This document shows, one piece after another, positions 29,047 to 64,000 of a stretch of 64,000 bases of DNA; position 1 is the stretch's first letter, and every line of letters starts with the position of its first letter. The translations under genes and the position numbers were made by a program. The DNA is taken from NCBI GenBank assembly GCA_026075535.2, contig AP026546.1, positions 620,001 to 684,000 of the forward strand. Reading direction: 5' to 3'. The notes beneath the pieces are model-generated. The model had not been told where the DNA came from. It made no database searches and saw nothing but the letters and a program-made list of their open reading frames with translations. The DNA is from Tricholoma matsutake (lineage: Eukaryota > Basidiomycota > Agaricomycetes > Agaricales > Tricholomataceae).

Positions 29047-29082
29047 AATTTACACTCCTCCACCTATTCTGATCAGAGTCCA

Positions 29083-29787
29083 GTGGATTCCAGTGGATTC
29101 CATTGGATTCCAGTGGATTCCATTGGATTCCAGTGGATTCCATTGGATTCCAGTGGATTCCATTGGATTCCAGTGGATTCCATTGGATTCCAGTGGATTC
29201 CATTGGATTCCAGTGGATTCCATTGGATTCCAGTGGATTCCATTGGATTCCAGTGGATTCCATTGGATTCCAGTGGATTCCATTGGATTCCAGTGGATTC
29301 CATTGGATTCCAGTGGATTCCATTGGATTCCAGTGGATTCCATTGGATTCCAGTGGATTCCATTGGATTCCAGTGGATTCCATTGGATTCCAGTGGATTC
29401 CATTGGATTCCAGTGGATTCCATTGGATTCCAGTGGATTCCATTGGATTCCAGTGGATTCCATTGGATTCCAGTGGATTCCATTGGATTCCAGTGGATTC
29501 CATTGGATTCCAGTGGATTCCATTGGATTCCAGTGGATTCCATTGGATTCCAGTGGATTCCATTGGATTCCAGTGGATTCCATTGGATTGATTCCAGTGG
29601 ATTCCATTGGATTGATTCCAGTGGATTCCATTGGATTGATTCCAGTGGATTCCATTGGATTGATTCCAGTGGATTCCATTGGATTGATTCCAGTGGATTC
29701 CATTGGATTGATTCCAGTGGATTCCATTGGATTGATTCCAGTGGATTCCATTGGATTGATTCCAGTGGATTCCATTGGATTCCACTG
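29083..29787. repeat. Minisatellite: perfect 20-bp units, then 24-bp units
   Basis: GATTCCAGTGGATTCCATTG (20 bp) repeats about 24 times without a single visible change through 29580. A 24-bp version with an extra GATT then repeats eight times to about 29780. All frames on both strands are open (up to 285 codons), purely because of the repeat. The units are partly self-complementary. Confidence 0.97.
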
Positions 29788-29911
29788 GATTCTGGTTATT
29801 CCGACCAGATTCTGGTTACTCCAGATGCTCAACTTAGAGTATATACCCTAATGGATAGTCAAATTTCAAGTCTTAAGTTGTCAAAGTGCCTACAAAATAT
29901 ATTTGTGCAGA

Positions 29912-29995
29912 GTAAGAATTGAACTCAAGACATCTTGATTAGAGTGATCACATGACAAACCAAACATGTGTGCTTAACCAGTTGAGCCACAGGAG
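29912..29995 (-). other. tRNA-like sequence, element A left (alpha type)
   Basis: On the minus strand CCTGTGGCTCAACTGGTTAA resembles a Pol III A box, and about 45 nt downstream GAGTTCAATTC resembles a B box. Stems are too degenerate for a functional tRNA. It is closely similar to 31761-31843 and 52765-52847. Confidence 0.65.
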
Positions 29996-30097
29996 AATTA
30001 TTAGTTAGTAATATAATGTTTATTCATGACACTCTAATTTTTTTCAAAGTAGTTAAGATCAAAAAATTTTAATTAAGGGAGTTTTATTTATATACAT

Positions 30098-30450
30098 AAA
30101 AAGCTAACCCCTCATGCCAGATGCGAGGGGGGAGGTAAAAATGACAAAAAAAATCCCTCCCCCAGGCAAAACAGGGGAGGGGGGGCACAATACTAATAAA
30201 TAATTAAAAGTACAAAAAATTAAAAGTACAAAAAAAATCCCTCCCCACACAAAGTGCAGGGGAGGGGGAGGGGATGCAACCCTGCTGTTGTCTGTCGTTC
30301 CACTCACGATCCACCCCACAAGCAGTTGCTCATGAGGCTGGAGGTGGGTGGCTTGTCATCATTGTCATTTCACCCACAATCCACCCCACGAGCAGTTGCT
30401 CATGAGGCTGGGGGTGGGTGGTGTGTCGATGGCCCTGTCATCATTGTCCG
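30098..30450. repeat. Hairpin cluster of element A (class 3 then class 1)
   Basis: C-rich class-3 hairpins: CCCCTCATGCCAGATGCGAG at about 30109, and CCCTCCCC...GGGGAGGG at about 30160 and 30240. Class-1 hairpins follow: CAAGCAGTTGCTCATG at 30318 and CACGAGCAGTTGCTCATGAG at about 30388. A related, less symmetrical copy is at about 30548. Confidence 0.75.
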
Positions 30451-30628
30451 TCATCATTGGCAGCCATGCTTTGCATTCTGGGGGGTTCTGGTGCTGGTAG
30501 ATGGTGGCATCATTGTTGTTGTTGCCTGCACACACTCATGATCCACCCTACGAGCAGGGGCTCACAGGCGTGGGGTGGGTGTGTTGGCTCGTTTGCAGGT
30601 GGTGGTGTTGTTACTAGTAGATTATAAC

Positions 30629-30735
30629 CTAGAAAGCTAAAAAAAAGGTTAGTTAGTTTATAAAACAAAAAGCAAATGAAAAAAAACATACTTAGGCCCC
30701 AAATGATGCAATCTGCATCGTTTGGGCCCGCATTC
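30629..30735 (-). other. Hairpin-adjacent intron-like unit, element A
   Basis: On the minus strand a class-2 hairpin (GGGCCCAAACGATG paired with CATCATTTGGGGCC, about 30693-30729) is followed by donor GTATGT at 30691, branch-like AACTAACTAAC and acceptor TTTCTAG at 30629, giving a 63-nt intron. The exon after it starts GTTATAATC. Confidence 0.65.
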
Positions 30736-30990
30736 TGTCCAGTCGGCTCGTTTGAAGGTGGTGGTGATGGTGGGAGTGGGCATGGGAATGGTGGTGGCAG
30801 GTGCGCATGCAGTGGCAGTGGTAGAGTGGAGAGGAGGAGGAGGCAGCCTTGAAGATGGTGGTGGTGGTTGTGAGCTGGCAGTCACGTGTCACATGTCATG
30901 CAATATGCATGTGTGCATATTCCATTAATGGCTGTAACTACGCACCTTGGTTGGGTAATAAAAGCATTAGATGGATGTAGATGAATAATG

Positions 30991-31062
30991 ACCCAGTAGC
31001 TCAGTGGTTAAGCATGCTGTTATGTGTGCAGACCCAAGGTCAAGTTTTCAATTCTTGTTGCA
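30991..31062 (+). other. tRNA-like sequence, element A right (beta type)
   Basis: GTAGCTCAGTGGTTAAGCA resembles an A box and AAGTTTTCAATTC a weak B box. It lies on the opposite strand to the left-end copy, so the two point toward the element ends in mirror fashion. Confidence 0.6.
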
Positions 31063-31334
31063 CGTCGAAATTTTATTTGGGAAAGCACATGCATTCCAGT
31101 TATTCCAGTTATGCTAGTGCCATGCATCTGGTTGATCCGACTATTCCAGGTAAAAATGAGTCCGGGTAGATTCTGGGGATTCTGGAGGTAAAATTGACCC
31201 CCCAGTCCGACTGGAATTATGAATTGTGAGAAAAATATATGTAAATGGAATTGACCAGAATTCCTGAAATTCCAATCGGAATGGGCATTCTGACTGGAAT
31301 CTGACCGGAATAGGTGGAGGAGTATAATGTACTC

Positions 31335-31412
31335 TGAGACAAGTACAATACGAAATCTCAACTGCTTTGCTATTTGACTGAGATACCTGCTTGAATATAG
31401 TATCTATTCAGT
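31335..31412. other. 78-bp spacer between elements A and B
   Basis: Short unique sequence. Its last 12 bases (TATCTATTCAGT) form the left target-site copy of element B. Confidence 0.7.
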
Positions 31413-31429
31413 ACTTTACAGTCCCCCAC

Positions 31430-31664
31430 CTGTCCTAGTGGACTCCAACCGGACTGACTGGAGTCCACTGGAGTCCGAGTGGAGTCCAATTGAACTACAC
31501 TAAGTCATGTAGAGTTCAATTGCCCATTGGAGTCCAACTGGAGTCCAAGTGGAGTCTGAGTGGAGTCCAAGTGGAGTCTGAGTGGAGTCCAAGTGGAGCC
31601 CAATGGGAGTCCAAGTGGAGTCCAACTGGAGTCTGAGTGGAGTCCAACTGGAGTCCAAGTGGAA
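31430..31664. repeat. Left minisatellite of element B
   Basis: Ten-bp-based units such as GGAGTCCAAGTGGAGTCTGA repeat irregularly. The same theme in complementary sense fills 33490-33820 at the other end. Confidence 0.85.
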
Positions 31665-31760
31665 TGCATTTCAACCAAATGATAAGTCAATTAGATATGA
31701 GCTCAAAGGACTTCGGAGTTGGTGAATTTCATAAAGTACCCACAAAATAAATCTGTGTAC

Positions 31761-31843
31761 TGCAGGAATTGAACTCAAGACCTCACCATAAGGAATCACA
31801 TGACAAACCAAACAAGTGTGCTCAACCACTTGAGCCACAGGAG
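31761..31843 (-). other. tRNA-like sequence, element B left (alpha type)
   Basis: On the minus strand GTGGCTCAAGTGGTTGAGCA (A-box-like) is followed by GAGTTCAATTCCTGC (B-box-like). It is about 85% similar to the element A left copy. Confidence 0.7.
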
Positions 31844-31949
31844 ATTTATTAGGGTTCAATATAAGGTTTACTTATGACTCAACTTTTCATATTCTTCGAG
31901 GAGGCATTTTTCAAACAATTAAGATCAAAAAATTTTAATTAGCCACATC

Positions 31950-32200
31950 CCTCGTGTAGGACACAAGGGAGTGGGTATAATATAATAATAAACAAAAAAA
32001 ACCCCTCTCACATCTTGCGAGAGGGGGGGGATTATTACTATGTATGTAAAAAACTAAACCCCTCGCATTTGGCGTGAGGGGGGGATTCATAAGTACTACA
32101 ATATATATACCCCTTGCATTCGGTGCGAGGGGGGAGCAGAGATAAATTAAAAATAATAAAGACCCCTCCCCACACAAAATGTGGGGGAGGGGGGGTTGGG
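31950..32200. repeat. Four C-rich class-3 hairpins of element B
   Basis: Successive stems: CCCTCTCACATCTTGCGAGA, CCCCTCGCATTTGGCGTGAG, CCCCTTGCATTCGGTGCGAG and CCCCTCCCCACAC...GTGGGGGAGG. Each has different stem bases but keeps pairing, with G.T or one-mismatch positions. Confidence 0.75.
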
Positions 32201-32697
32201 GGATGCAGTCTGGGGTGGGTGTTGTTGCCCACCCCTCCTCGCATGCATCCGTCGCCATAGCAAGCCACACCCATCATCCACCCTACGAGCAGAGGCTCGT
32301 AGGTGTGGGGATGAGTGCCATGATTGTCGTAACCCTGGTGTACCTGCCATCCACCCGACGAGCAGGTGCTCATCGGCGTGGGGTGGGTGTGTTGTCAGTT
32401 TTGTGGGTCTCCTAGTTTGGAGGGGTTGGGGGGAATGGTCAGTGATGTGGCATGCAAGGGAGGGGGTAGGTGGGTATCCTGCTCTGCTGGTCTCCTGGTA
32501 CCCCTCTGCTGTCTCCTATCCTTTATTGACACCCTCACATCCCATTTGGACAGGGAGGAGGGGGCTGGCATGGGTGTTGTTGGGTCTGGGTCGTTCTGGG
32601 TCCTGGTGCTGGTAGGCGGCATCGTCATCGTCGTCGTTGACTGCACACACTCACGATCCACCCTACAAGCAGGGGCTCATAGGCGTGGGGTGGGTGT

Positions 32698-33165
32698 GTT
32701 GACTCATTTGTGGGTGGTGGTGTCATTACTAGTAGATTATAACCTAGAAAACTCAAAAAACGAGTTAGTTAGTTGATAAAAACAAAAACCAAACAACAAG
32801 AACTTATGTAGGGCCCAAACGACGCGATCTGTGTTGTTTGGGCCTGTGTTGGCTCGTTTGTGGGTGGTGGTGTCGTTACTAGTAGATTATAACCTAGAAA
32901 ACTAAAAAAACGAGTTAGTTAGTTTATAAAAACAAAAACCAAATGAAAAAAACTTATGTAGGGCCCAAACGATGTGATCTGCATCGTTTGGGCCCACATT
33001 GGCTCGTTTGTGAGTGGTGGCGTCGTTTCCAGTAGATTATAACCTAGAAAACTAAAAAAAAACAGGTTAGTTAGTTTATAAAAACAAAAAGCAAACAAAA
33101 AAAAAACTTATGTAGGGCCCAAACAACACGATCTGCGTCGTTTGGGCCTGCATTCCATCCATTCG
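32698..33165 (-). repeat. Three tandem hairpin-intron units of element B (about 152 bp each)
   Basis: Units begin near 32698, 32850 and 33000, with a partial fourth at 33165. On the minus strand each has a class-2 hairpin (GGGCCCAAACGATG paired with CATCGTTTGGGCCC), a donor-like site, an AACTAACTAACT branch region and acceptor TTTTCTAG followed by GTTATAATC. Intron-like spans are 32744-32807, 32894-32957 and 33044-33111. In all three the expected GTAAGT reads ATAAGT, so the donor G appears to have been lost before amplification, unless AT-AG splicing is used. Confidence 0.7.
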
Positions 33166-33214
33166 GCTCGTTTTTGGGTGGTGGTGATGGCAGATTGGGC
33201 ATGGGAGTGGTGGC

Positions 33215-33302
33215 AGTGGGTGTCCATGCAGTGGTGGTGGTGGTAGAGAGAGGAGGGAAGGAGGTGGCATCGATGGTGGTGGTGGTGGTGGTGGTGGTGG
33301 TG
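33215..33302. repeat. GGT microsatellite
   Basis: Runs of GGT/GTG at 33228-33244 and 33272-33302 produce low-complexity frames on both strands. Confidence 0.85.
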
Positions 33303-33397
33303 AGTGATGAGCTGGCACATTTGATGACGCAGCAATATGCTTTGTCATACACAGCTGCACCATGGTACCTAATGCAAGTAGATGATGCCTCACACAA

Positions 33398-33475
33398 GGT
33401 ACTGTGGTGTAATGGTTATATTGTGCATCATAATTGATTACATAAGCAACCTACAGAGATCTGGGTTTGATTCCT
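33398..33475 (+). other. tRNA-like sequence, element B right (beta type)
   Basis: CTGTGGTGTAATGGTTATA resembles an A box and GGGTTTGATTCC a good B box, about 50 nt apart. It lies just before the terminal minisatellite. Confidence 0.65.
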
Positions 33476-33489
33476 TTTCTTACACACTT

Positions 33490-33825
33490 TTTCAGTGGAA
33501 TCCGACTGGACTCCACTTGGAATCTGACTGGACTCCACTCAGACTCCAACTAGACTCCACTCGGAATCTGACTGGACTCCACTCGGACTCCAACTAGACT
33601 CCACTCGGACTCCAACTGGACTCCAACTGGACTCCATTGGACTCCACTGGACCAGTCCGAGTGGAATCTGGTGTTTGAGTGGATTCCACTCAGAGTCCAG
33701 TCGGACTGGACTGGGACTGGACTGGCAACTTTGCAGGCAGTTGGCTGGTGAACAGTCCTGGTGGACTCCAGTCAGACTCTGGTCAGTCTGGTCGGACTCC
33801 AGTTGGAGTCCAACAGGAAAGGTGG
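33490..33825. repeat. Right minisatellite of element B
   Basis: GGACTCCACT and GGACTCCAAC-type 10-mers repeat across the interval and mirror the left array. Confidence 0.85.
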
Positions 33826-33842
33826 GGGAGTGTAAAGCCCTC

Positions 33843-34200
33843 TATCTATTGGATAAAGCGCTGCAAGCGTGTGGCCGAAAAACTTACTACATTTACCAGT
33901 GGGTCCACCCCGGCACTTGTTGACAGTGTCTACCAAAAATATGCAATTTCTCGTGACCAAGAGGTCATCAATGTGGTGGTTGCTCAAACAACACGCTTTG
34001 TTACGTTGATCTGTTGCTACCAAAATGAATTACTGCAGCTTACTGGGGTGGGGCCAGAGCTAGGGGTAGCGAACATGGTTGAAAAGGATGTTGGGGAGAT
34101 CAATTCATGGATGGAGGAGCTCCTGTGCAGCACGATGGGAGGTTTTGAGGATGTCATCGCAACATACCACTCACAAGGTTTTATGTTCCAGCAGCAATAA
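33843..34200 (+). pseudogene. C-terminal remnant of an unrecognised gene cut by element B
   Basis: Immediately right of element B the frame IYWIKRCKRVAEKLTTFTSG continues through TPALVDSVYQKYAISRDQEV, AQTTRFVTLICCYQNELLQL and VEKDVGEINSWMEELLCSTM to a stop at 34198-34200. The texture is helical and protein-like. No domain is recognised. The sequence left of B does not clearly continue the frame, so the 5' part may be lost or separated by elements A and B. Confidence 0.4.
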
Positions 34201-38206: not shown

Positions 38207-39379
38207 TAGTGTTTAAAAGTCCGGTCCGGTCCGGTTTTTTTGACAACAACAGGGGCAACCATGGACCAGACCAGTTGCTTACATGCTCAACATCAAGGCA
38301 ACTGAGGACTGCTGGACTGGTGTAAACCAGTCCATACTTAGACTGGTCCTGACCAGTTCACAACCGGTCAGGACCGACTATTTGTACACTAATATACATG
38401 TCTCGAAGTAATATATTTTGAAAACTAGTAGTAGTAATATAAGTAAACACTACAGACAAAACCATAAATGAATGGCTAGACCATGTGGCTAGTGCTTTCG
38501 GGGGTGTATCTATATCATATATGTAGTGTCTAATCCAAGTTTAACAAAAGGATACATTGAACCATTATTGAATTACAGTTCTACAGAGTTTTCAGAGGAA
38601 TGAGGAGGAAGGGTTGCTTACCATAGATGAATGGTTGTACCATTTGACTAGTGCTTTAAGGAGCACATATATAATATATATTGTATTTAATCCAGGTTTA
38701 CGAAAGGATTGGTTGAGCCGTTATTGAGTTACAGTGCTATGGAGTTTTCAGAGGAATGAGGAGGAAGGGTTGATTACCATAAATGAATGACTGTACCATT
38801 CAACTAGTGCTTTGCGGAGCATATATATATGCCATATATAGTGTCTAATCCAGCTTTATGAAAGGATGCATTCAGTCATTATTGAATTATAGTCCGACGG
38901 AGTTTTGAGAGGAATAAGGAGGAAGGGTTGCTTACCATAGATGAATGGTTGCATCGTTTAACTAGTGCTTTTGGGAGCATATATATATATAATATATGGT
39001 ACTTAATCCAAGTTTACGAAAGGATCAGTTAAGCCGTTATTGAATTACAGTGCTACGGAGTTTTCAGAGGAATGAGGAGGAAGGGTGTTTACCACGAATG
39101 AACCACTGCACCATTGAACTAGTGCATTTGGGTGGATGTAGATATACTCTATACAGTGTGGAATCCTGGTTTATGGACATAGCTGTTAAGGTATTACAAT
39201 CCTACAATAACTTATTTAGTCAGTGCCAGCATACAGATTACTTGTATCACATGTAATCAATTGATCACTTGCCTTAGCAACACATCAAATTATGATCAAA
39301 GACTGGTTGGAACCGGTCTTTACCCAGTCCATAATTATTTGAAAAACTATGCAACCGGCAACCGGACTTTCAAACACTA
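38207..39379. mobile_element. hAT-like MITE G
   Basis: Ends are TAGTGTTTAAAAGTCCGGT and its inverted partner ACCGGACTTTCAAACACTA. An exact 8-bp target duplication TCAGCGAC flanks it (38199-38206 and 39380-39387), which together with TAGTG ends is typical of the hAT superfamily. No transposase is encoded. Subterminal zones carry many ACCGGT/ACTGGT motifs. The centre is a roughly 157-bp tandem repeat. Confidence 0.9.
38466..39240. repeat. ~157-bp tandem repeat inside element G, five copies
   Basis: ATGAATG followed about 15 bp later by ACTAGTGCTTT recurs near 38466, 38626, 38779, 38938 and 39094 (spacings 160, 153, 159 and 156). Each unit also contains GGAATGAGGAGGAAGGGTT and an ATATAT patch. 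Confidence 0.9.
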
Positions 39380-44122: not shown

Positions 44123-44154
44123 GAATCTTGCAGTACTTTACACTCCCCCCCCCC

Positions 44155-44345
44155 CAGTCCAAGCAGACTCCGCTTGGACTCTGCTCGGACACTTGGACAC
44201 TCGGACTGTCCAAGGACTTTACTTGGACTCTGCTCGGACTCTGCTCAGACACTTGGACTGTCCTAGGACTGTCCAAGTTGTCCAAGTTGTCTGAGTAAAG
44301 TCTGAGGACTGCACTCAGACTGCACTCAGACTTTGCTTGGACAAC
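44155..44345. repeat. Left minisatellite of element C
   Basis: GGACTCTGCTC and TGTCCAAGT-type units; mirrored at 46090-46325. Confidence 0.8.
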
Positions 44346-44450
44346 ATCAATTGTGCATTTATTTACACCTTCTAAAGTACTGTCCAAGTAAAGTCCGAGT
44401 TCCAGTCTTAGAGAAAGTCTTATAAGTCTCACAAAATAATGTGTACACAG

Positions 44451-44531
44451 CAGGAATTGAACCAACAGCCTTCTGGACTAGCAATCACATGACAATGAAA
44501 CATGCACACTCTACCACTTAAGCTAAGTAGT
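44451..44531 (-). other. tRNA-like sequence, element C left (alpha type)
   Basis: On the minus strand TAGCTTAAGTGGTAGAGTG is A-box-like and GGTTCAATTCC is a near-consensus B box, with TGTGTACACATTATTTTGT after it as in A and B. Confidence 0.7.
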
Positions 44532-44609
44532 CATTTAAAGTTACATACATTATATCTATTTATTACTGAAATCTAATTTTTTATATATCATGAATAGATT
44601 ATTAAATTG

Positions 44610-44865
44610 ACCCCCTCACATCTGTGTGAGGGGTAATTAGTATGGGTAATTAATATGTATAATACTAAGCCCTCCCCTCGCAAGCTCGAGGGGAGGGGGC
44701 CATAACTATCAATAATAAAAATAAATTAAAAACACCCACCACAAGCAACTGTTGCTCATGGCGGCGTTCGTCTCTCCCCGGGTTGTCCCCTGGCTGTCTT
44801 GCTCTCCTGTCCCCATTCTTCTCCCCCCCAAATGACCCCATGAGCAGATGCTCGTAGGGGTGGGG
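44610..44865. repeat. Hairpin cluster of element C
   Basis: C-rich stems CCCCTCACATCTGTGTGAGG (about 44613) and CCCTCCCCTCGCAAG...GAGGGGAGGG (about 44671-44698). Class-1 hairpin ATGAGCAGATGCTCGTAG follows at about 44840. Confidence 0.75.
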
Positions 44866-45090
44866 TGGGTGTCATTGTGGGTGTCCCCACTCGTCATCAT
44901 CTCCATTCCCTCTCGTCTCTGTTCCCTCTCATCTCTGTTCCCTCTCATCTCTGTTCCCTCTCATCTCCCTTCCCCCTCATCTCCATTCCCTCTCGTCTCT
45001 TCACCCTCACCTTCCACCCTGTGAGCAGGGGCTCACAGCAGTGGTGGTGGAGGTGTCATCATCATCGTTGTCGCCAGTATTAGTTCGTAC

Positions 45091-45180
45091 CTATAAAAAG
45101 CTAGTTTGGATCGAAAAATGAAATGAGAAAAGAAAAGAAAACTTACCTAGGACCCAAGAGATGTTGATGTCTCTTGGGTC
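45091..45180 (-). other. Hairpin-adjacent intron-like unit 1, element C
   Basis: Minus strand: hairpin GACCCAAGAGACATCAACA paired with ATGTCTCTTGGGTC (45150-45181), donor GTAAGT at 45146, acceptor TTTATAG at 45091, 56 nt. Confidence 0.65.
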
Positions 45181-45385
45181 TCCCTAATCATCGTCATTCC
45201 ACCCACCATCCACCCCATGAGCAGTTGCTCATGAGGCTGGAGGTGGGTGGTGTGTCCTGCATGGTGGGTGTCAGTAGCCGTTCTTGTTGTTTCAAAGTTG
45301 CACCCATTCCCACTCCACAAGCAGCTGCTTGTGGCAGTGGTTCTGAGTGCTCATCATCCTCATCATCAGCAGTACTAGATAATAC

Positions 45386-45468
45386 CTAAAAAGGTTTGTT
45401 AGTAACAAAAACAAGAGAAAAAAACTTACCAACAGCCCAAGAGACGTCAAATGACATCTCTTGGGCCT
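45386..45468 (-). other. Hairpin-adjacent intron-like unit 2, element C
   Basis: Minus strand: hairpin GGCCCAAGAGATGTCA paired with TGACGTCTCTTGGGC (45434-45468), donor GTAAGT at 45429, branch TACTAAC, acceptor TTTTTAG at 45386. It is 44 nt, exactly the length of the homologous unit in element E. Confidence 0.75.
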
Positions 45469-45748
45469 TTTCTTCATTTGCTTTGCCTTTCTTTCACTGT
45501 TTCCTGCTCATCCCCTCGTCATTCCATCTCCCAGTCCCAGTTGTCTCCAATTGTCTCATTGCGTTGTCGTTCTGTTTGGCCAAGTCAGCATGGCCGTTGT
45601 CTTGCCATTGTCTTGCCGTTTTGCAGTTGTACCCATTCCCACCCTGCAAGCAGTTGCTTGCGGTGATGGTTCTGGGTCCTAGGGTGGTGGCTGTGTCAGC
45701 CGTTGTCATGGTTTTGATGCTGCAGCATCGTTATAACATAGATAAAAC

Positions 45749-45850
45749 CTATTATTAAAGAAATTTCAGTTAGTTAAACAAAATAACAAAGATCATGTAA
45801 AAAAACACTTACAAGTAAGCCCAAACAACAATGCTGTTGTTTGGGCTCAT
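45749..45850 (-). other. Hairpin-adjacent intron-like unit 3, element C
   Basis: Minus strand: hairpin GAGCCCAAACAACA paired with TGTTGTTTGGGCTT (45817-45848), donor GTAAGTG at 45812, branch TTAACTAAC, acceptor AATAATAG at 45749. It is 64 nt, the same as the E counterpart. Confidence 0.75.
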
Positions 45851-45980
45851 TCCCATTGTTGTTTATTGGGGTAGGAGGTAAGGAGGAGGCAGCACCGTTG
45901 CCAGCATTGTTGATGACATGGGTGTGTTGATTTGTCATCACAGCTGGGGCGGTACATAGAGAGATATACTTACCTGTAAT

Positions 45981-46058
45981 GATGCTTTAGTCTAGCTGTT
46001 ATATCGCTGACTTAATTGTACTTTATCATGTGACTATGAGGGTTCAATCCCTGCAGTA
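45981..46058 (+). other. tRNA-like sequence, element C right (beta type)
   Basis: Weak A box (TAGTCTAGCTGTTATATCG) and good B box (GGGTTCAATCCC). It corresponds to 63155-63232 in element E on the opposite strand. Confidence 0.65.
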
Positions 46059-46532
46059 GCTACAGATTTTTCAGTCAATTATATAAGCAACTCGGACAGT
46101 CCTAGGACTGTACGAGTGCTGGTCCACTCGGACTCAGCTCGGATGCTCAGACAGTCCTAGGACAGTCCGAGGTCTCAGCTCGAACTCAGCTTGGACTGGA
46201 CATTTAGTTTGGCAGGACTTTCAGCCAAAGAAGTCTGAGCAAAGTCTGAGCAAAGTCCTCAGACAGTACTCAGACAGTACTCGGACAGTCCAAGTGTCTG
46301 AGCGGAGTCTGCTCGGATTGGGGGGGGGGGGAGTGTAAAGACCTCGAATCTTGCAGTGATGTCGGTTGTCAACTTTGGAGTCAAGGACTTCGGTGATCTC
46401 ATATTCAAGCTCATTGTTGATGGTGATCAGAGGAGGTGGAGGTTGTACTCAATTTGGAATTGTGTTTGGGGAGTGTGTCTCTAGTTGAGAGACATGGAAA
46501 ACAGGGTGAATGGCCTGCATGTGATCCGGGAG

Positions 46533-47678
46533 CTACAGGGTGACTGAGTGAGTGCCCGGGAGGGCGATGATTTCGAAGGGGCCATGGTGCTTATCAGAAA
46601 GTTTCTTGGAAGGATGGGTGGTGCAGATATTTTCCGCAGTGACATAGGCAGAGTCACCAATGTTGAAGTTGGGTGTGGGTGCCCAATGTTTGTCCACAGG
46701 ACCTTGATAATGCTCTTGAGCAGCTGCAAGCTGTTTCCAAAGCTCCTGATGAAGGTTGTCTAAGTCGACAACAAACTTGCAGGTGCACTGTGAAGCTAAG
46801 TTGCATTCTGGAAAGACAGAAATGTTCAGGTGATAGCCTTTGTTGGAAAAGAAAGGGGATACACTTGTAGAGGCAGAAGGAGCATTGTTGTAGGCAAATT
46901 TGCCCAAGGGTAAGAGGTGAGACCAGTTGTCCTGCTGATAGTTGCAGAAGATCTGGAGGTACTGCTCCAAGGTCTGATTAAGTTGTTCTGTCTGACCATC
47001 ACCTTGTGGGTGATAACTGGAAGTGAAGTGGATCCACATGTCGAGTGCTTTTCCGATGGAGCAGAAGAAATGGGAGACAAACTCGGATCCCCGGTCGCAA
47101 GTGACATGCGATGGAACACCATGCTTGGAGAAGATGTGGAGGACGAACAGGTTGGCTAGTTCTTGGGCTGTGATTTCATTGACAGTTGGGATGAAGATGC
47201 CTTGTTTGGTGAGATGGTCAACGATGACCAGGATAGCAGTGTGACCATCAGAGTCGGGTAGTTGCTCAATGAAATCCATGGAGATGGAGTTCCAAGGTCG
47301 TTCCGGAACCAGAAGTTGCTTTAGAAACCCATAGGGCTTGTGTTGAGGTGATCTGGATCATTTGCAAGTGGTACAGGATTTGCAGAATTCCTGCACAAAG
47401 GTGTGGAGGTTTGGCCAGACATATTCCTGGTGGACAAGCTGCTGGGTTTTGTTTTGTCCGAAGTGGCCAGAGAGGATGTGATCGTATTTGTACTGAAGGA
47501 CCTTGAGGTGAAGATCCACGATGTCCGGAACATAAATCTGGTCAAAGTGGCAGAGGAGACCTGCCTTGTCTATGGTCCAGTTGGGGTCGATAGGTGTCGG
47601 AAGATGGGCAGATGAAAAGGGGTCAAGGGGTAGGGAGGTGTGGATGTTGTGGTGAAGTTTCTCAACATCCATGATCAC
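46533..47678 (-). CDS. Gypsy integrase (zinc finger and catalytic core)
   Basis: H2C2 zinc finger: HILSGHFGQNKTQQLVHQEY ... CKSCTTC at 47480-47360. Catalytic core from 47279: MDFIEQLPDSDGHTAILVIV (first Asp region), SHVTCDRGSEFVSHF (second Asp) and SYHPQGDGQTEQLNQTLEQY (Glu). The C-terminal PFEIIALPGTHSVTL leads into the chromodomain. A frame break lies between the zinc finger and core near 47340. The D-D-E residues remain. Confidence 0.92.
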
Positions 47679-47738
47679 TGCTTGTCGAAGGATGTGTGTG
47701 GCGAAATAGATGGCATGAAGGGAAGAGGTGAGCTGTTC

Positions 47739-49532
47739 CTATGTGAATACAAGTCGGAAGTTGGTTGGGTTTATGGAGGCGAAGTCACTATTTCCCCCTT
47801 TGCAGTAGACATCGCAACGTCTAGTGAGTGTGTCTGGCTTGGCCCCTAATTTTCCGGGGTGGAAGTGGATGATGAGATTGAACTGGGAAAGGTACTCAGA
47901 CCAACAGGCCTGGTGGTGGGTGAGCAACTTGGTAGTGCTGAAGTACTCAAGATTTTTGTGGTCGGTGACCACATCAACTGGGTTTGTGGAACCCTCAAAA
48001 TACTGCCGCCAGTGTTTGAAGGCTTCAAAAATGGCCAAGAGTTGCTTATCATGGGTGTCATAATTTAGTTCAGTGGGATTGAAGGAGTGGGAATGAAAAT
48101 GATCAGATGGATCTCTCCATCCGCAGTGTAAACCAAAAGGATAGCCACTAAGGCATAGTCAGAAGCATCGGTTTTGAGTACCATCTGTGAATCAGGTACC
48201 CATTGCATTAAGATGGGGGCATGAGTGAATTCTTGTTTGAGCTTTTCAAAAGTGTCGCAGCACTGTCCAAGGGTGCAGATTTCTGCATCAAGCGGGTGAG
48301 TGGGATGACAATGTCTGAATAGCCATTAATGAAGCAGCGGTAAAGCCTAAGAAGGGTTGTATATCCTTAACTTTCCTAGGCTTGGGCCAGTCAAGCATGG
48401 TTTTGACTTTATCCTTGGACATCCGCAGTCCATCCGGTGAAAGGATGAAACCTAAATATTCGACGATGTCTTTGTGGAACTCACATTTCTGTGGAGAGGC
48501 ATAAAGTCCATTTTTCTGGAGATGGTGGAGGACTTCTTTGATGTGAGTCCCATGCTGGGACTTGTCATTGGAATAGATTAGGATGTTGTTGAGGTATACA
48601 ATGACACAAACATCCAGCATGTCGCTGAAGGTGTTGTTCATAAACCACTGGAAGGCTGTGGGTGCATTAGTGAGCCCAAAGGGAACCACCAACCACTCGA
48701 AGGATCCATAGCGGGTGCAGAAAGTAGTTTTCCACTCATCACCATCAGCAATGCAGACGAGGTGATAAGTGTGCCACAAGTCTATCTTGGTGAATAAGTG
48801 GGCTTTGCGGGGAGAGTCAAGGAGGTTGGAACTGAGAGGAAGTGGGTAGCAGTCTTTCTTCATAAGACAGTTAAGACCTTGGTAGTCGACACAAAGTTGG
48901 AGACTACTGTCCTTCTTCTTGACGAAGAGAATTGGAACACCATGCAGAGACTTGGATGGGGATGAAACTGAGCAGACATTTTTGTCAATAAAGACTTGTA
49001 AGGCTTCTAATTCAGAGGGGGAGAGAGAATACATTTGGCCCAGAGGTGGAGGAGTATTGTCTTCTGTCTCTATCTTGAGGTCGTAAGACCGATGCGGAGG
49101 AAGGGTATCCACTTTAGTCTTATTAAAGACATCAGCAAATTTGTGATACTTGGGTGGAATATCTGAGAGGTCGGATGAGTTAGCAGATTGGGCAGAGTGG
49201 GTGGATAACCCTTCTGGAGCAAAGGTCATCTGAAAAGCTACTGCCCCAGGAAGTTTGCTTGCATGCACATAAGTGGCAGCATTGATGAAGGAGATGTCAG
49301 GGGGTGTAAATTTAGGAGGAATGGGGGTTTCAGAAAGTGCAGAGGAGTCGAGGATTTCTACTGGAAGATTTGGGGACAAAGGTGATGTCAGGGGTGCTGG
49401 ACCTCTATGATCTGCAGAGCAGAAAGCGAGCTGGCTTGAAGACCAGTCAATCAATGGATTGTATTGCTTCAACCAGTTATGACTGAGTATGGTGGAACAG
49501 GAAGAGTTGAGTGAGGTTACATAAAATGACAA
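47739..49532 (-). CDS. Gypsy reverse transcriptase and RNase H
   Basis: The RT frame (48288-49532) contains SLHGVPILFVKKKDSSLQLC, VDYQGLN, HLFTKIDLWHTYHLVCI, FCTRYGSFEWLVVPFGLTNA and CEFHKDIVEYLGFILSPDG. The polymerase signature reads VIVYLNNILIYSN where YLDD is expected, so both catalytic aspartates are Asn. R to Q (VDYQGLN), R to W and R to C changes occur at conserved positions. RNase H (47739-48061) shows VVTDHKNLEYFSTTKLLTHH and PGKLGAKPDTLTRR. The two parts are separated by a frame disruption at 48061-48290. Confidence 0.93.
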
Positions 49533-49549
49533 ATTGAATACTTCACCAG

Positions 49550-49808
49550 CAGGGAAGGTGACCAGAAGTTTGACGATCTGAGTTATGGTGGAGTTGCAAG
49601 ATCCATCAAAGAGTCATAAACCAATCGGGTTAATGGACTCTGTGCTGAGTTGGTTATTCAACATGAAAGAGGAGTCAAGGAAGCAGTGGGAGGAGCCAGA
49701 GTCAATAAGGGTTTGGAAAGGGGCAGAAGAGTTGGGAAAGGTTAAAAGAATGGTTAGGGAGTCAGGGTCAGAAAGAGCGGACACATTGAGATGAATGTAG
49801 GCAGCCAA
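49550..49808 (-). CDS. Gypsy aspartic protease
   Basis: FQTLIDSGSSHCFLDSSFM carries the retroviral-type DSG active site. It is preceded by SLTILLTFPNSS and lies between gag and RT in the usual order. Confidence 0.85.
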
Positions 49809-49929
49809 GTGGGTAAGGTCAATGCAACCCCCAGCCCCAATGGCTGAATCCTGAGGGTTGTGGACTATTTTTCCGAGTCCATAGTCTCGGGAATGACAGT
49901 GGATGCATGGACTTTTGCAGCTTTGGATT

Positions 49930-50867
49930 TTGGGCAGTTTCCTGCTACATGCCCTTCCTCACCACAGTAGAGACAAAGTTGTTCTCTCATGTCACTGTCG
50001 AGTCATGTGACATTCTTGTTCCTCCCCAGTAAGCTTGCTGTTCTTCCCCAACTTATTGGAGATGGACGACTTGGGCTTGTCCCAGGAAGTGTTCTTTGTC
50101 ACAGAAGACTGCTGGTTGGAGGTGTTACCATGGGCAGAGTTTGAAGAGGCTTGGTTTGTCAGTGGGGAAGGGCTTTTGGAAGAGTCCTTCTGACTAGAGT
50201 TAGTGACATCACTGGAATTCTTTGTTTCGAAATGGGATTCGTCTTCTTGCATCCAGTAGATGTCGTTGTTGTCCTGCACTTTCAAGCGCAGTTCTGTGAG
50301 AGTATTGGGTTTACCACCCTGGAGAACTTCTATGCAAAGCCAGAGTGGAAGACCATGGAAATAGTGGTCACAAAGGGCTGCTTCATTCCAGTTGACCCTA
50401 GAAGCTAATTCCCAGAAGTCAATGTTATATTTTGTGATATGACCACCTTTCTTCATTGCTAAGTCAGACAGAGCTTTTTCTGCATCTCCAACTGGGTCAT
50501 GTGGACTGAAATTGCTTTCCAGCTCAGCGAGGAAAGCTTCATAGTCCCACATCCAGTGTGCGGAATCTGTCAGGTCATTCAGACCAGGCTCAAACCAACT
50601 GAGAGCTGATCCCTTAAGATAAGAAAGGATGAATATGATCTTTTTCTCATCAGAGGAAAATACATGCAGATGGTTGTGGAAATGAAGATTGCAGGAGACT
50701 AAGAAGTCTCTAAGTTTCTTTGGATTGGCACCGTCGAAAGTGTTGGGGTCGCAAACTTTGATTTTCTTGGTCTTGGGTGTGTTATTCTGATGAAGGGTGT
50801 GGATACTCTCCAAGAGGTTGTAAAGGACATCTATGAACCTATCCCCTGGGTCAGGGTTTTCCCCCAT
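49930..50867 (-). CDS. Gypsy Gag with CCHC zinc knuckle
   Basis: ATG at 50867. The capsid-like region includes FDGANPKKLRDFLVSCNLHF, LSYLKGSALSWFEPGLND and WDYEAFLAELESNFSPHDP, then NIDFWELASRVNWNEAALCD and YFHGLP, as in Retrotrans_gag domains. A Ser/Asn-rich linker follows. The knuckle CLYCGEEGHVAGNC (about 49965-49925) is in a different frame from the stop at 49992, so a frameshift separates them. Confidence 0.92.
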
Positions 50868-51280
50868 GGGAGGTTGATCCTCAGGATCATTGGGATCGGG
50901 GTCACCCCCAGGGCCGTCAGGACCACTAGGGTCGTCGGGTCAACTGGGGGGTCTGTCCTCTAGACCAGGATCAGGATCTTCCAACCCAAAGGGAGGTCTT
51001 TACACTCCCCCCCATATTCCTATAGGAATCCAATGATTCCAATGATTCCAATGTCATTTTCACTAGCCAAATTGACATGAAATGGCACATTTAGTCCTAG
51101 TCCAGTCCTATGTAGTCTGATCAGAGTCTGATCGGACTATCAGAATTTCCTAGGAATTTCCAATCATAGAAATCACATAGGACTAGTCTAAAGTTATGCT
51201 AAGACATCAGACAACATAGGATTCCGATAGGAATGAAAGCAGCCTTGCTTAGTAATATAGTATGAAAAATTAAATGCACA

Positions 51281-51354
51281 GATGAGAATTGAACACTTGA
51301 CTACAGAAGATTATGTAAGCATAAACTGACAACAATACCATTAGGCTAAACAGT
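51281..51354 (-). other. tRNA-like sequence, element D left (beta type)
   Basis: On the minus strand TAGCCTAATGGTATTGTTG (A-box-like) and GTGTTCAATTCTC (B-box-like). It occupies the type-2 end, as beta copies do in A, B, C and E. Confidence 0.6.
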
Positions 51355-51601
51355 CATTACAGGTAAGTGATCATACTACACTACATACCATTCCCATGGG
51401 TGTGATGACAAAGCACATAGCCGCATCATCACACCTGCCAGCTCATCAACTCCCACCACCACCACCAACAACAACAAGCACGCCACCTCCATCCCCCCCA
51501 CCTCAACCACCTCAACCCAGCAACTCCCACCACTCCCACTTCACCCCCATCTCTAGACCAGCCCCCAAGACCGGAAACAACTGGTTTCAATGCTGAATGA
51601 C

Positions 51602-51696
51602 ACCCAAATGATGCAATTGTCATTTGGGCCATAGTAAGTTTTTTTCATTCATTTTTTACTTTTGTAAACTAACTAATTCATTTGTTCTGTTTCTAG
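51602..51696 (+). other. Hairpin-adjacent intron-like unit, element D
   Basis: Hairpin ACCCAAATGATGCA paired with TGTCATTTGGGCC (51602-51630), donor GTAAGT at 51634, branch AAACTAACTAA and acceptor TTTCTAG ending at 51696 (63 nt). The next exon starts GTTCTAATC. Confidence 0.75.
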
Positions 51697-51914
51697 GTTC
51701 TAATCTACATGAGTAATGATGGACTGATGCAAGCCAAACCCACACCCAACAATGCCCCTGGCAACCCCCCTCCTCCCCATCAAAATGGGATGTGAGGGTA
51801 TCGATCATGGTCAGGAGCATGGGGAGCAACACCAGGAGACCCCAGAAGGGGAATACCCACCTGGTAAGCACCACCCAACCCCTCCCCTCGAGCTACATCA
51901 CTGATGAACTGACA

Positions 51915-52370
51915 ATGCACCCACCCCACGCCTATGAGCTGCTGCTCATAGGGTGGATTGTGAGTGCATGGACCCCCCACGACACCAATAACATCCAGCA
52001 CCCCCCATCACCACCATGAGCAACTGCTCACAGGGTGTATATGGGGTGCGAGAACATGGGAATGGCATGGAGGAACAATGATGGCACCAAATGACATGCC
52101 TACAAGCAGCTGCCCGTAGGGTGGTTTGTGGGTGCAGATGATGAGGGGGATGAACAACAAGGGTGATGAAACCACAAGGGGAAAGGGAAATGATGACCAG
52201 AAGGGGAGATGATGGTGACACCCACCCCACGCACACCTACGAGCATCTGCTCATAGGGTGTTTAAGGGGAGGGGGAGGGAGGGGACGATGGACAAACACC
52301 ACCACCAACATATGATGCACCACCCACCACCAGCCTCGCAAGCAACTGCTCATGGGGTGGACAGTGGGTG
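51915..52370. repeat. Class-1 hairpin series of element D
   Basis: TATGAGCTGCTGCTCATAGG (51929), ATGAGCAACTGCTCACAG (52014), TACAAGCAGCTGCCCGTAGG (52101), TACGAGCATCTGCTCATAGG (52241) and CGCAAGCAACTGCTCATGGG (52338) recur about every 90-110 bp. Stem bases vary between copies but mostly remain paired. Confidence 0.8.
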
Positions 52371-52509
52371 GAATGATGAGGGAGGGGAGACAAGGGAAGC
52401 GAGGGAAGCCACAGGGGAGGCGAGGTGAGGGAGGCAAGACACAACAGAGACAAGAGGGAGGGGAAACAATGGGACAGGGCTGATGAGACAGCCAATGCGA
52501 TGCACCACC

Positions 52510-52672
52510 ACTCCCTCCCCCGCATTTTGTGGGGGGTGGTTTTTTTTTTTTGTAGAATTTAAAATAGTATAATTAAATAGTATAATTAATTCTCCCCCTC
52601 ACATTTGCATGGGGGTTTTTAAAAAAATCTATATTAGTTATCTACTCCCTCGTGTAGATGTGAGGGCTCAAC
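52510..52672. repeat. C-rich class-3 hairpins of element D
   Basis: CCCTCCCCCGCATTTTGTGG (about 52512), CCCCTCACATTTGCATGGGG (about 52594) and CCCTCGTGTAGATGTGAGGG (52648-52667) lie beside the alpha tRNA-like sequence, as in A, B and C. Confidence 0.75.
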
Positions 52673-52764
52673 AATTTTTTTTCAAGCTCTTGTGAGAGAG
52701 GTTAAAAATAAGTGAACTAATCCTAAGTGCTTTAAATGGACTTTATATTACATATTTATTAATG

Positions 52765-52847
52765 CTCCTGTGGCTCAACTGGTTGAGCACTTGTTTGGTA
52801 GTCATGTCACTTATATCCCAAGGTCTAGAGTTCAATTCCTGCTCTGC
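52765..52847 (+). other. tRNA-like sequence, element D right (alpha type)
   Basis: CCTGTGGCTCAACTGGTTGA (A box) and TAGAGTTCAATTCCTGC (B box). It is the best-preserved member of the alpha group. Confidence 0.7.
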
Positions 52848-53469
52848 CCATTTATTTTGTAAGCACTTTCATCAAGTTAAGTCTTCTGAAATGGTGTGGT
52901 ATTCCGACTACTACCTGTTGGAATTGCATTGGACTTTACTCGGAATTTACTAGGAATTTCTTGGAAATAAAAGTACATGGTCATCAAGATACATTCCGAT
53001 CAGATTCCTATCAGACTCCTAGGACTAGTGTCAGACTAGTAGGACTCCTATTGGATTCTGATCGGACTCTTATTGGAAAACTCGGACTCCTAGGACTCCG
53101 ATAGGAATATGGGGGGGAGTGCAAAGTCTACCCTGAAGGGTTCAGGCTGGTTGATGCCCCCTATGTACTCAAGGGAAGTTCTTGATTGAAAACCTTCTGG
53201 GTTGCCGGAAGGAAGGTTGCAGGGCATGGGTGGACATGAGATTGGCACTGATTGAGGGGGATCCTGAGTCAATTTGTCAGAAGATGTTTGAGGGTCTGGA
53301 AGACACTCCAAAAGTAGTGGTGGGTTGAGGGTCAGAAAGGGTGGATCGCTGGATTGCAGAGATCCCTGGAATAGTACCAGTGCATTGGGAATTTTTTGTT
53401 GTGCACTGGTGGGTCTCAGTAGGGGTCATAGAGAGGAAATGGATGAGTGAAGTGTGAGTTTGTATATAC

Positions 53470-57790: not shown

Positions 57791-57812
57791 CTCCTCCTCA
57801 CATGGAATCGCA

Positions 57813-61446: not shown

Positions 61447-61542
61447 CTAAAAAGAAAAGGTTTAGTTAGTAAAAAAGAAGAAATCAACAATAAAAACCAT
61501 ACCTGGGACCCAAACAACATGCTAGTCATTGTTTGGGCCCAC
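61447..61542 (-). other. Hairpin-adjacent intron-like unit 2, element F
   Basis: Minus strand: hairpin GGGCCCAAACAATGAC paired with TGTTGTTTGGGTCC (61507-61541), donor GTATGG at 61502, branch TACTAACTAAA and acceptor TTTTTAG at 61447 (56 nt). Confidence 0.7.
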
Positions 61543-62385: not shown

Positions 62386-62810
62386 TGCTGGCCTCTCATC
62401 TAATTGGGACCTTCAAACAATACCTGAATAGAGTCAGAATAAGCCTAAGATCAGATCAAACAGATGAGAACTTACTACAAGTACCTCATCTCATATCAAG
62501 CTCCTACTAACAAAGATGTGGTTGTTGCAAAAGAATGAGTAAATGCTGGCCTCTCATCTAAGTGGAACCTTCAAACGACACCTAAACAGAGTCAGAATAA
62601 GCCTAAGATCATAGCAAACAGATGAGAACTTACTAAGATCTCAAGTACTCATATCAAGCCCCTACTGACAAAGAGGTGCTTGTTGTAAAGAACAAGTAGG
62701 TGCTGGCCTCTTGTTTAATCAGGACCTTCAAACAAAATCTAAATAGAGTCAGAATAAGCCTAATATCATATAAAACAGACCAGGACTCACTTAAGATCTA
62801 GAGCAACCAA
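62386..62810. repeat. ~157-bp tandem repeat, about 2.7 copies
   Basis: TGCTGGCCTCTCATCTAA, GACCTTCAAAC and AGAGTCAGAATAAGCCTAA recur from 62386, 62544 and 62701 (spacings 158 and 157). Non-coding. Confidence 0.9.
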
Positions 62811-63154
62811 AAACATACTCATACAGAAGGCAGGTTAAGTGTGGGTCACAGGTGACAAAAGTGTGACCCATACCCAGAGATACCCATAGCTGTGACCTGC
62901 ATGGGTTACCCCAACCTGTGCCAATGCCTAATTACCAGGCTCAAATTCAAGTTGTAAAGATAGGTCAATGCACCCAAGGTCTTTACACTCCCCCCCCCAA
63001 TCCGAGCAGACCCCAATCCGAGCAGACTCCGATTGGACTCTCGGACAGTCCAAGAATTCTTGGCTGAAAGTCCTGCCAAACTAAATGTCTAGTCCGAGCT
63101 GAGTCCTCGGACTGTCCAAGTTGCTTATATAATTGACTGAAAAACCGGTAGCTA

Positions 63155-63232
63155 CCACAGGGATTGAACCCTCATGGTCACATGATAAAGCACAATTAAA
63201 TCAGCAATAGAACAGTTAGACTAAAGCATCAT
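63155..63232 (-). other. tRNA-like sequence, element E left (beta type)
   Basis: On the minus strand GGGTTCAATCCCTG is a near-consensus B box. It is the counterpart of 45981-46058 in element C. Confidence 0.65.
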
Positions 63233-63369
63233 TGCAGGTAATTAGTTATATCTATCTATGTACCGCCCCGGCTGTGATGACAAATCAACACAGCCATGTC
63301 ATCAACAACGCTGGCAACGGTGCTGCCTCCTCCTTACCTCCTACCCCAATAAACAACAATGGGAATGAG

Positions 63370-63464
63370 CCCACGACAGCATTGTCATTTGGGCTCACTT
63401 GTAAGTGTTTTTTTAGATGATCTTTGTTCTTTTGTTTAACTAACTGAAATTTCTTTAATCATAG
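63370..63464 (+). other. Hairpin-adjacent intron-like unit 1, element E
   Basis: A hairpin of the AGCCCA...TGGGCT class (63369-63396; here the left arm reads CCCACGACAGCA and pairs imperfectly with TGTCATTTGGGC), donor GTAAGTG at 63401, branch TTAACTAAC and acceptor ATCATAG ending 63464 (64 nt). Confidence 0.7.
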
Positions 63465-63544
63465 GTTTTATCTATGTCATAATGATGCCGCAGCCTCAAA
63501 ACCATGACAACGGCTGACACAGCCACCACCCTAGGACCCAGAAC

Positions 63545-63575
63545 CACCGCTGCAAGCAACTGCTTGCGGGGTGGG
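63545..63575. repeat. Class-1 hairpin in element E exon 2
   Basis: CTGCAAGCAACTGCTTGCGG; the homologous position in C reads CCGCAAGCAACTGCTTGCAG. Further class-1 hairpins of E are CCGCAAGCAGCTGCTTGCGG near 63880 and CACGAGCAACTGCTCGTGGG at the window end. Confidence 0.85.
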
Positions 63576-63745
63576 AATGGGTACAACTGCAAAACGGCAA
63601 GACAACGGCAAGACAATGGCCATGCTGACTTGGCCAAACAGAACTACAACGCAACGAGACGACTGGAGACGACTGGGACTGGGAGATGGAATGACGAGGG
63701 GACAAGCGGGAAACAACGAAAGGAAGGCAAAGCAAATGAAGAAAA

Positions 63746-63827
63746 GGCCCAAGAGATGTCAAACGACGTCTCATGGGCCGTTGGTAAGTTTTTTTTTCTT
63801 GTTTTTGTTACTAACGAACTTTTTTAG
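63746..63827 (+). other. Hairpin-adjacent intron-like unit 2, element E
   Basis: Hairpin GGCCCAAGAGATGTCA paired with GACGTCTCATGGGCC (63746-63778), donor GTAAGT at 63784, branch TACTAACG and acceptor TTTTTTAG ending 63827 (44 nt). Confidence 0.75.
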
Positions 63828-64000
63828 GTATTATCTAGTACTGCTGACGACGAGGACGACGAGCACTCAGAACCACTGCCGCAAGCAGCTGCTTGCGGAG
63901 TGGGAATGGGTGCAACTTTGAAATGACAAGAACGGCTACTGATGCCCACCACGCAGGACACACCACCCGCCTCCAGCCTCACGAGCAACTGCTCGTGGGG

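Follow-up and report, generated by a model that had tools for sequence, protein, structure and literature searches.

Palindrome-rich elements of Tricholoma matsutake are probably non-autonomous DNA transposons moved by CxC5/CxC6 KDZ-type transposases

Miniature inverted-repeat transposable elements (MITEs) and non-autonomous hAT elements occur as many short, gene-less copies with short inverted ends, and 8-bp duplications and ends starting with CAG are typical of hAT. Foldback elements such as Drosophila FB and Galileo have repeat-rich inverted ends with internal minisatellites, while tRNA-derived short interspersed nuclear elements (SINEs) carry an A/B-box-like sequence followed by a T-run. 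Pfam labels the CxC5 and CxC6 clusters as associated with KDZ (Kyakuja-Dileera-Zisupton) transposases. According to the portion of PMC12730594 available to us, both Zisupton and a Dileera element of Puccinia graminis are reported to make 8-bp duplications, and Kyakuja has 7-bp duplications, CA..TG ends, and no terminal inverted repeats (TIRs). Here, we analyzed a 64,000-nucleotide stretch of the Tricholoma matsutake genome (the window; contig 9, 620001-684000), which contains five palindrome-rich elements, A to E. We conclude that these are in all likelihood non-autonomous cut-and-paste DNA transposons, moved in trans by CxC5/CxC6 KDZ-type transposases that are encoded in same-ended copies of about 6 kb. 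This reading is based on common ends and a common terminal layout, 8-bp duplications, empty sites, and the finding of one gene-bearing copy for each of two lineages.

The preliminary description of the window had recognized five related elements, with inverted ends of the CTTTACACTCCCC type, terminal minisatellites, interiors with hairpins and introns, and no open reading frame (ORF) resembling a transposase. These points were borne out. Tandem repeats lie near the ends, most clearly in A, B, and C, and hairpins and intron-like stretches are present in the interiors. The ORFs of at least 130 amino acids in A to E are minisatellite or low-complexity frames, and a Pfam search of four of them, all from B, gave no match.

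In the searched genome (161,040,721 bases, 13 contigs), the family has about a thousand copies, the gene-less members being mostly 1.7-2.8 kb long. The sequence CTTTACACTCCCCC occurred 2,015 times, compared to 6 times for the reversed control. The exact ends CAGTACTTTACASTCC (CAGTAC), GAGGTCTTTACACTCC (GAGGTC), and GTARACTTTGCACTCC were found 741, 1,011, and 172 times, respectively, and each reversed-pattern control was found 0 times. The first 11.84 Mb of contig 1 contained 44 pairs of convergent neighbors at most 12 kb apart, 43 of which joined one CAGTAC with one GAGGTC end. The remaining pair, L022, has two GAGGTC ends, one B-type and one C-type, flanking gypsy sequence. Most pairs (35) span 1.7-2.8 kb; four are shorter and five are longer. 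Reading the flanks of many copies jointly placed the true outer limit six bases outside TTTACA and not at CTTTACACTCC. One end is CAGTAC and the other GAGGTC, and D-type elements combine GAGGTC with GTAAAC or GTAGAC. The outer 6 bp are unequal between the two ends, and the inner TTTACACTCC is common to both and inverted. The corrected limits are 29043-31334 for A, 31409-33842 for B, 44131-46345 for C, 50993-53131 for D, and from 62976 for E; those first given for A, B, and C omitted the CAGT of one end.

Flank comparison revealed an 8-bp target duplication, the length reported for Zisupton and Dileera. Over 26 candidate end pairs (18 genuine, 8 false or crossing), mean flank identity was 0.62 at 8 bp and 0.21 to 0.36 at the other lengths from 4 to 13 bp. 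Perfect 8-bp duplications flank 12 distinct copies: 10 of the 18 genuine pairs (L021 [B-type], L023 [D-type], L024, L025, L026, L027, L031, L036, and B and C of the window) together with L046 and L048. Within the window, B (TATCTATT) and C (GAATCTTG) have perfect duplications, while D matches at 6/8 and A at 5/8 positions. Elsewhere, imperfect duplications were found at L034 (7/8; a duplicate of the L031 region), L037, L047, and L049 (7/8 each), and L038 (6/8). There was no duplication at L029 (2/8) and L033 (1/8), of which L032 and L035 are near-duplicates. A length of 9 bp fitted better in 2 of the 18 genuine pairs, the D-type copy in L021 (GAATAAGGT; 396-2526) and the C-type copy in L023 (GGAGCAGGC; 396-4422). 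The 12-bp duplication proposed previously was rejected, since the offset scan and the empty sites both gave 8 bp; C seemed to have 12 bp because a chance CAGT in the right flank adds to the 8 bp.

Empty sites, which the preliminary description had named as a means of measuring the duplication, thus gave 8 and not 12 bp. For 16 insertions, the flanks were joined with one 8-bp copy and searched in the collected sequences; five of these tests were repeated after a 1-2-base correction to the ends of L048 and L049. Relatives spanning the empty junction were found for 5 of the 16 insertions (C, the D-type copy of L023, L047, L049, and L048). The empty site of C is in L028, where an uninterrupted gypsy copy has one GAATCTTG (90% over 152 bases, no gaps). 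The D-type copy of L023, which is nested in a C-type element, had 15 matches including window C, several of them gap-free. L047 sits in a D-type element and had four relatives (94-95% over 101 bases, no gaps). L049 also sits in a D-type element, its best relative being L037 (85% over 152 bases, 2 gap letters), and the relatives of L048 matched at 86-88% with 2 gap letters. For the other 11 insertions (A, B, D, L024, L025, L026, L027, L036, L046, L021B, and L031), no relative spanning the junction was present in the collected sequences.

Three of the five insertions with empty sites (L023, L047, and L049) lie inside family members, and two of these are gene-bearing copies inside D-type elements. 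This may reflect a preference for relatives, or a bias, since relatives were the sequences collected.

The sequences between the ends were inspected for all five longer pairs on contig 1. L046 and L048 are long owing to gypsy elements, and the pair at 2,111,527 cuts across the nested elements of L023. As autonomous copies, L022, L028, L046, and L048 were rejected; their length comes from other, largely gypsy, sequence inside or between the ends. A larger same-ended copy with a transposase-type gene, the existence of which the preliminary description had suggested checking, was found at L047. It comprises 6,272 bp between B-type ends, contains no gypsy sequence, and has terminal minisatellites, outward A/B-box units, and the 7/8 duplication. 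CxC5 (PF18718) was detected in L047 (E=9.1e-31), in its near-copy L050 (E=1.7e-29), and in L049 (E=8.3e-21). CxC6 (PF18721) was detected in L050 (E=3.7e-10, 40.3 bits) and L049 (E=2.3e-9, 37.8 bits), and L047, with 26.9 bits, was just under the cut-off of 27.5. L049, at 10,683,900, holds a CxC5 gene that belongs to a second lineage (52% identity in CxC5) and has a C-type end 2,565 bp away; the copy has C-type ends and one outward box unit. Apart from L047, another 13 loci align to almost the full length of the CxC5 query, with identities of 94-97%. A CAGTAC end lies 2.50-2.66 kb from the same residue in all three L047-family genes on contig 1 within the listed range, L047 included (2,664 bp at 10,385,555, 2,508 bp at 13,873,124, and 2,497 bp at L047); a fourth contig 1 copy, at 15,708,191, is outside the range of listed ends.

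The ends were then compared with one another over their first 450 bp, with the best match taken per pair. The GAGGTC end of L047 matched subfamily B at 94% over 185 bp (L034) and 89% over 208 bp (window B), compared to only 19 bp with C, and its CAGTAC end matched window B at 78% over 208 bp, compared to 50 bp with C. The GAGGTC end of L049 matched C-type ends at 82% over 190 bp (C) and 188 bp (L024), compared to 20 bp with D and no listed match with B. Its CAGTAC end also matched C-type GAGGTC ends at 79-81% over about 100 bp. Such long, subfamily-specific ends, common to gene-bearing and gene-less copies, are what autonomous and non-autonomous partners show and are hard to obtain with a passenger gene. 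We conclude that the transposase encoded by the longer same-ended copies, which is of a known though little-described kind, is very probably the mover of the gene-less elements. The earlier proposal of non-autonomous elements served by an enzyme encoded elsewhere is therefore supported, but the statement that they match no superfamily is not, since the partner protein carries the KDZ-associated CxC5/CxC6 clusters.

In the mechanism that we propose, the CxC5/CxC6 protein would bind the TTTACACTCC repeats within the unequal CAGTAC/GAGGTC ends, cut at CAGTAC and GAGGTC, and insert the element with an 8-bp stagger. Gene-less copies would use this enzyme in trans, L047 being the partner for subfamily B and L049 for subfamily C. 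The terminal minisatellites would have grown by slippage.

The family resembles KDZ elements in the CxC5/CxC6 clusters of the partner and in the 8-bp duplications of Zisupton and Dileera. It differs from Kyakuja, with 8 bp and an inverted TTTACACTCC here compared to 7 bp and no TIRs there, and the KDZ nuclease domain PF18758 was not matched in the partner proteins. Therefore, we refer to a CxC5/CxC6 KDZ-associated lineage and not to Zisupton, Dileera, or Kyakuja. By eye only, the partner blocks IDKAC, YHYINH...C, and CEQLNAW could correspond to YDIVCQ, HVHGHKDEC, and GEILESLW in the PF18758-type sequences. Among PDB entries, no relatives of the C-terminal part of the partner were found. In the available portion of PMC12730594, we found no unequal outer 6 bp with a common TTTACACTCC, no terminal minisatellites, and no outward A/B-box units, and the words CxC, minisatellite, and tRNA are absent from its main text. 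A KDZ gene fragment of a different lineage (PF18758, E=4.7e-35) is located at 25309-25821 of the window, without CAGTAC/GAGGTC ends; a scan for an 8-bp duplication with TIRs gave no convincing pair around it.

Several observations weigh against our reading. The missing PF18758 match is one of them; furthermore, L047-family loci were absent among the PF18758 matches listed, and when five partner C-termini were compared by hhalign with four PF18758-type sequences from the genome, the probability was 0.1%, with very shallow profiles (Neff, the effective number of sequences, 1.4 and 2.1). None of the six other CxC5 loci on contig 1 (listed range) has an exact CAGTAC end at the expected distance; therefore, either these ends serve only some of the CxC5 genes or they have decayed. 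L050 has no GAGGTC end in the stretch examined. No gene-bearing partner was found for A or D, and by eye, no D-type end adjoined a CxC5 gene among the first 100 of the 172 places listed. The CAGTAC end of L049 is the weaker one, matching the CAGTAC end of the C-type copy L024 over 43 bp and that of B over 38 bp, and both gene-bearing copies (L047 and L049) have 7/8 and not perfect duplications. Finally, a transposition event was not observed.

The features of the five elements in the window are as follows, with the strand given where one was assigned.
29043-31334: element A; ends CAGTAATTTACACTCC and GAGTACATTATACTCC; flanks CAAGACAG and TGAGACAA (5/8); 174 genome matches
29079-29792: terminal minisatellite of A; 20-bp unit, 34 copies
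29916-29989, minus strand: left outward boxes of A; A box 29989-29979, B box 29924-29916
30637-30691, minus strand: intron-like stretch of A; GTATGT...AACTAAC...TTTAG, adjoining a hairpin
30997-31054, plus strand: right outward A box and B box of A
31401-31408: left target duplication of B, TATCTATT
31409-33842: element B; ends CAGTACTTTACAGTCC and GAGGGCTTTACACTCC
31528-31663: left minisatellite of B; 11-bp unit
31766-31837, minus strand: left outward A/B boxes of B
33405-33473, plus strand: right outward A/B boxes of B
33497-33652: right minisatellite of B; 11/22-bp unit
33843-33850: right target duplication of B, TATCTATT
44123-44130: left target duplication of C, GAATCTTG
44131-46345: element C; ends CAGTACTTTACACTCC and GAGGTCTTTACACTCC; within a gypsy element; empty site in L028
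44454-44525, minus strand: left outward A/B boxes of C
45091-45146, minus strand: intron-like stretch of C; 56 nt, hairpin on the 5' side
45386-45429, minus strand: intron-like stretch of C; 44 nt, branch site TACTAAC, hairpin on the 5' side
45749-45812, minus strand: intron-like stretch of C; 64 nt, hairpin on the 5' side
45988-46050, plus strand: right outward A/B boxes of C
46346-46353: right target duplication of C, GAATCTTG
50993-53131: element D; ends GAGGTCTTTACACTCC and GTAGACTTTGCACTCC; flanks CCCAAAGG and CCTGAAGG (6/8)
51286-51348, minus strand: left outward A/B boxes of D
51634-51696, plus strand: intron-like stretch of D; 63 nt, hairpin on the 5' side
52771-52838, plus strand: right outward A/B boxes of D
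62976-64000: left part of element E; end AAGGTCTTTACACTCC; continues past the window
63161-63223, minus strand: outward A/B boxes of E
63401-63464, plus strand: intron-like stretch of E; 64 nt, upstream hairpin weak and under the cut-off
63784-63827, plus strand: intron-like stretch of E; 44 nt, hairpin on the 5' side

A search with one end pattern in the 2,000 bp following the window did not reveal the far end of E. Regarding the subfamilies, parts of A can be aligned with B at about 80%, and interiors of C-type elements gave no match above 80 bits with those of A, B, or D.

To score the outward boxes, the A box and the B box were combined (15 informative positions) and sought in the terminal 650 bp at each of the 44 ends of 22 elements. 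On the outward strand, 41 of the 44 ends scored 14 or 15, compared to 4 on the inward strand. Such scores were reached in 2.7% of 1,760 shuffles, in which single bases were permuted within 20-bp windows without preserving dinucleotides; as copies within a subfamily are related, the independent cases number perhaps ten. The low-scoring ends were the left ends of A and L049 and the right end of L033; the left unit of A was found beyond the 714-bp minisatellite. The distance from the B box to the start of a TTTT run is 13-18 bases at 36 of the 44 ends and 1 base at 3; 5 ends have no such run within 45 bases. Of the gene-bearing copies, L047 carries both outward units and L049 one of two. The tRNA-like sequences described previously hold up as A/B-box-like sequences near both ends but not as tRNAs: none was found by ARAGORN at default settings, by Rfam on the window (E up to 1), or by Rfam on the right-hand unit of D, and we rejected them as tRNA genes. 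At its most permissive setting, ARAGORN gave four predictions with very long introns in 13 sequences. The units may be transcribed by RNA polymerase III (Pol III), which would read them outward from near each end. A further idea, which we regard as doubtful, is that this is a KDZ lineage with an outward Pol III unit at both ends of autonomous and non-autonomous copies alike, the layout being kept across subfamilies with non-aligning interiors because short RNAs would aid transposition or shield the ends, e.g., by keeping them open or insulating them from silencing.

Since 8-bp duplications also fit hAT, and hAT dimerisation domains are abundant in the genome (at least 151 matches), we considered whether A to E are non-autonomous hAT elements moved by a hAT transposase. 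This is very improbable. The three hAT matches listed for contig 1 below 5.7 Mb are all more than 5 kb away from the nearest listed exact end, the second end starts with GAG so that only the inner TTTACACTCC is common, and the same-ended gene-bearing copies encode CxC5/CxC6 proteins and not hAT. In the scanned partner pieces, no hAT dimerisation domain was detected between the ends; only CxC5 and CxC6 passed the cut-offs, other matches being weak. The genes in the other long copies resemble gypsy or PIF/Harbinger. We give as little credit to the KDZ gene being a passenger, i.e., to a KDZ element with its own ends having jumped into B- and C-type elements. Comparable insertions do exist: L046 and L048 contain gypsy elements, and L029, L032, and L041 contain a PIF/Harbinger element (DDE_Tnp_4), the own AGGGTGGTCGG ends of which are seen in L041, identifying this gene as an insertion and not a native part of the family. 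However, the two KDZ-associated lineages, each within ends of its own subfamily, occupy the same relative place, the CAGTAC end is at a near-constant distance in three of three relatives, and no inner TIR with a perfect 8-bp repeat surrounds the CxC5 gene, except for minisatellite matches in L047. Least probable of all, with hardly any chance of being right, are foldback/Mutator-like elements with a long target duplication. The long inverted minisatellite ends do resemble foldback elements, but the duplication is 8 bp and not 9-12 bp (9 bp fits 2 of the 18 genuine pairs), and the genes in long copies are gypsy, PIF/Harbinger, or CxC5/CxC6, with no search aimed at the Mutator-like family.

An explanation of another kind, that the interior encodes a conserved functional RNA with hairpin exons beside introns, is unlikely, though less so than the preceding three. 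Intron-like stretches of 44-84 nt (GTAAGT-type 5' site, CTAAC-type branch, AG) were present in 11 of 13 gene-less copies; B (5' site ATAAGT) and L038 had none. In favor of such an RNA, a strong hairpin lies directly upstream of 24 of 36 intron-like GT sites, compared to 7 of 283 other GT sites (related copies counted), and two paralogous hairpins carry paired changes (CCCAAAC/GTTTGGG and CCCAAGA/TCTTGGG). The two introns of the partner gene had no upstream hairpin in the same scan. However, the arms mutate independently, and the suggested RNA-based function is therefore not supported as far as the hairpins are concerned, although it may still apply to the outward Pol III-like units. In 46 CCCAAA-type modules, both arms had changed at four CpG pairs in 4, 4, 8, and 4 cases, compared to 3.3, 4.4, 8.6, and 3.0 expected. 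Pairing over 52 modules (0.705) was above the mean of 2,000 shuffles (0.642) but below their maximum (0.721). Changes in the 52 distinct arm pairs are mostly at two CpG sites of CCCAAACGACG...CGTCGTTTGGG. Independent arm changes mean that the palindromes were present in the source copies and are now decaying; most simply, this decay would be due to deamination of methylated cytosine. The paired differences point to an older compensated change in the source lineage, and selection on RNA in individual copies is not supported.

The matsutake elements share features with other systems too. Like MITEs and non-autonomous hAT elements, they have many short gene-less copies, 8-bp duplications, and short inverted ends, but they are larger, their interior is intron-like and hairpin-rich, and the partner gene is not hAT. 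They resemble the foldback elements FB and Galileo in their repeat-rich inverted ends with internal minisatellites and differ from them in the 8-bp duplication and the partner gene. With tRNA-derived SINEs they share the A/B-box-like sequence followed by a T-run, but SINEs are unlike them with regard to the inverted ends, the fixed 8-bp duplication, the outward boxes at both ends, and the missing match to a tRNA model. The element megB1, described as a dimeric Alu-like element in the available part of PMC10627285, was rejected as a member of the family. The terms hAT, KDZ, Kyakuja, MITE, and class II are all absent from PMC6980582. A limited literature search found no paper on non-autonomous minisatellite, foldback, or hAT elements in fungi and, concerning Pol III boxes in DNA transposons, only unrelated work.

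Other repeats were also noted. The PIF/Harbinger insertions in L029, L032, and L041 are near the same spot, located between terminal minisatellite and outward box unit, in C-type and B-type elements; L029 and L032 were rejected as autonomous PIF/Harbinger elements, because L041 has the identical 3-kb unit inserted in a B-type element. In the window, a Ty3/gypsy element (46533-50939) has integrase, reverse transcriptase, and gag-like frames on the minus strand; its integrase end is interrupted by element C, and element D lies just past the gag end. A 1,173-bp element at 38207-39379, with a perfect 8-bp flanking repeat (TCAGCGAC), inverted ends (TAGTGTTTAAAA/TAGTGTTTGAAA), and a 158-bp tandem repeat (38461-39132), resembles a hAT-type MITE. 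A huge foldback structure occupies 8158-10313, where minisatellite arrays with the unit TGAAATGCGCAATGCAGAATC and with its reverse complement oppose each other over about 2 kb.

Unclassified repeats make up 25.4% of the matsutake genome according to the available part of PMC10211490, and the present KDZ-associated family, which may account for part of them, can now be named. As of 2025, Zisupton is the only KDZ element well characterised as a transposon, as stated in the portion of PMC12730594 available to us. For the CxC5/CxC6 lineage, the matsutake genome provides ends, a duplication length, empty sites, and matched autonomous and non-autonomous pairs, and transposition is therefore directly testable. 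Furthermore, if the outward Pol III-like units, near-constant at both ends of these DNA transposons, are transcribed, specialists would find this surprising.

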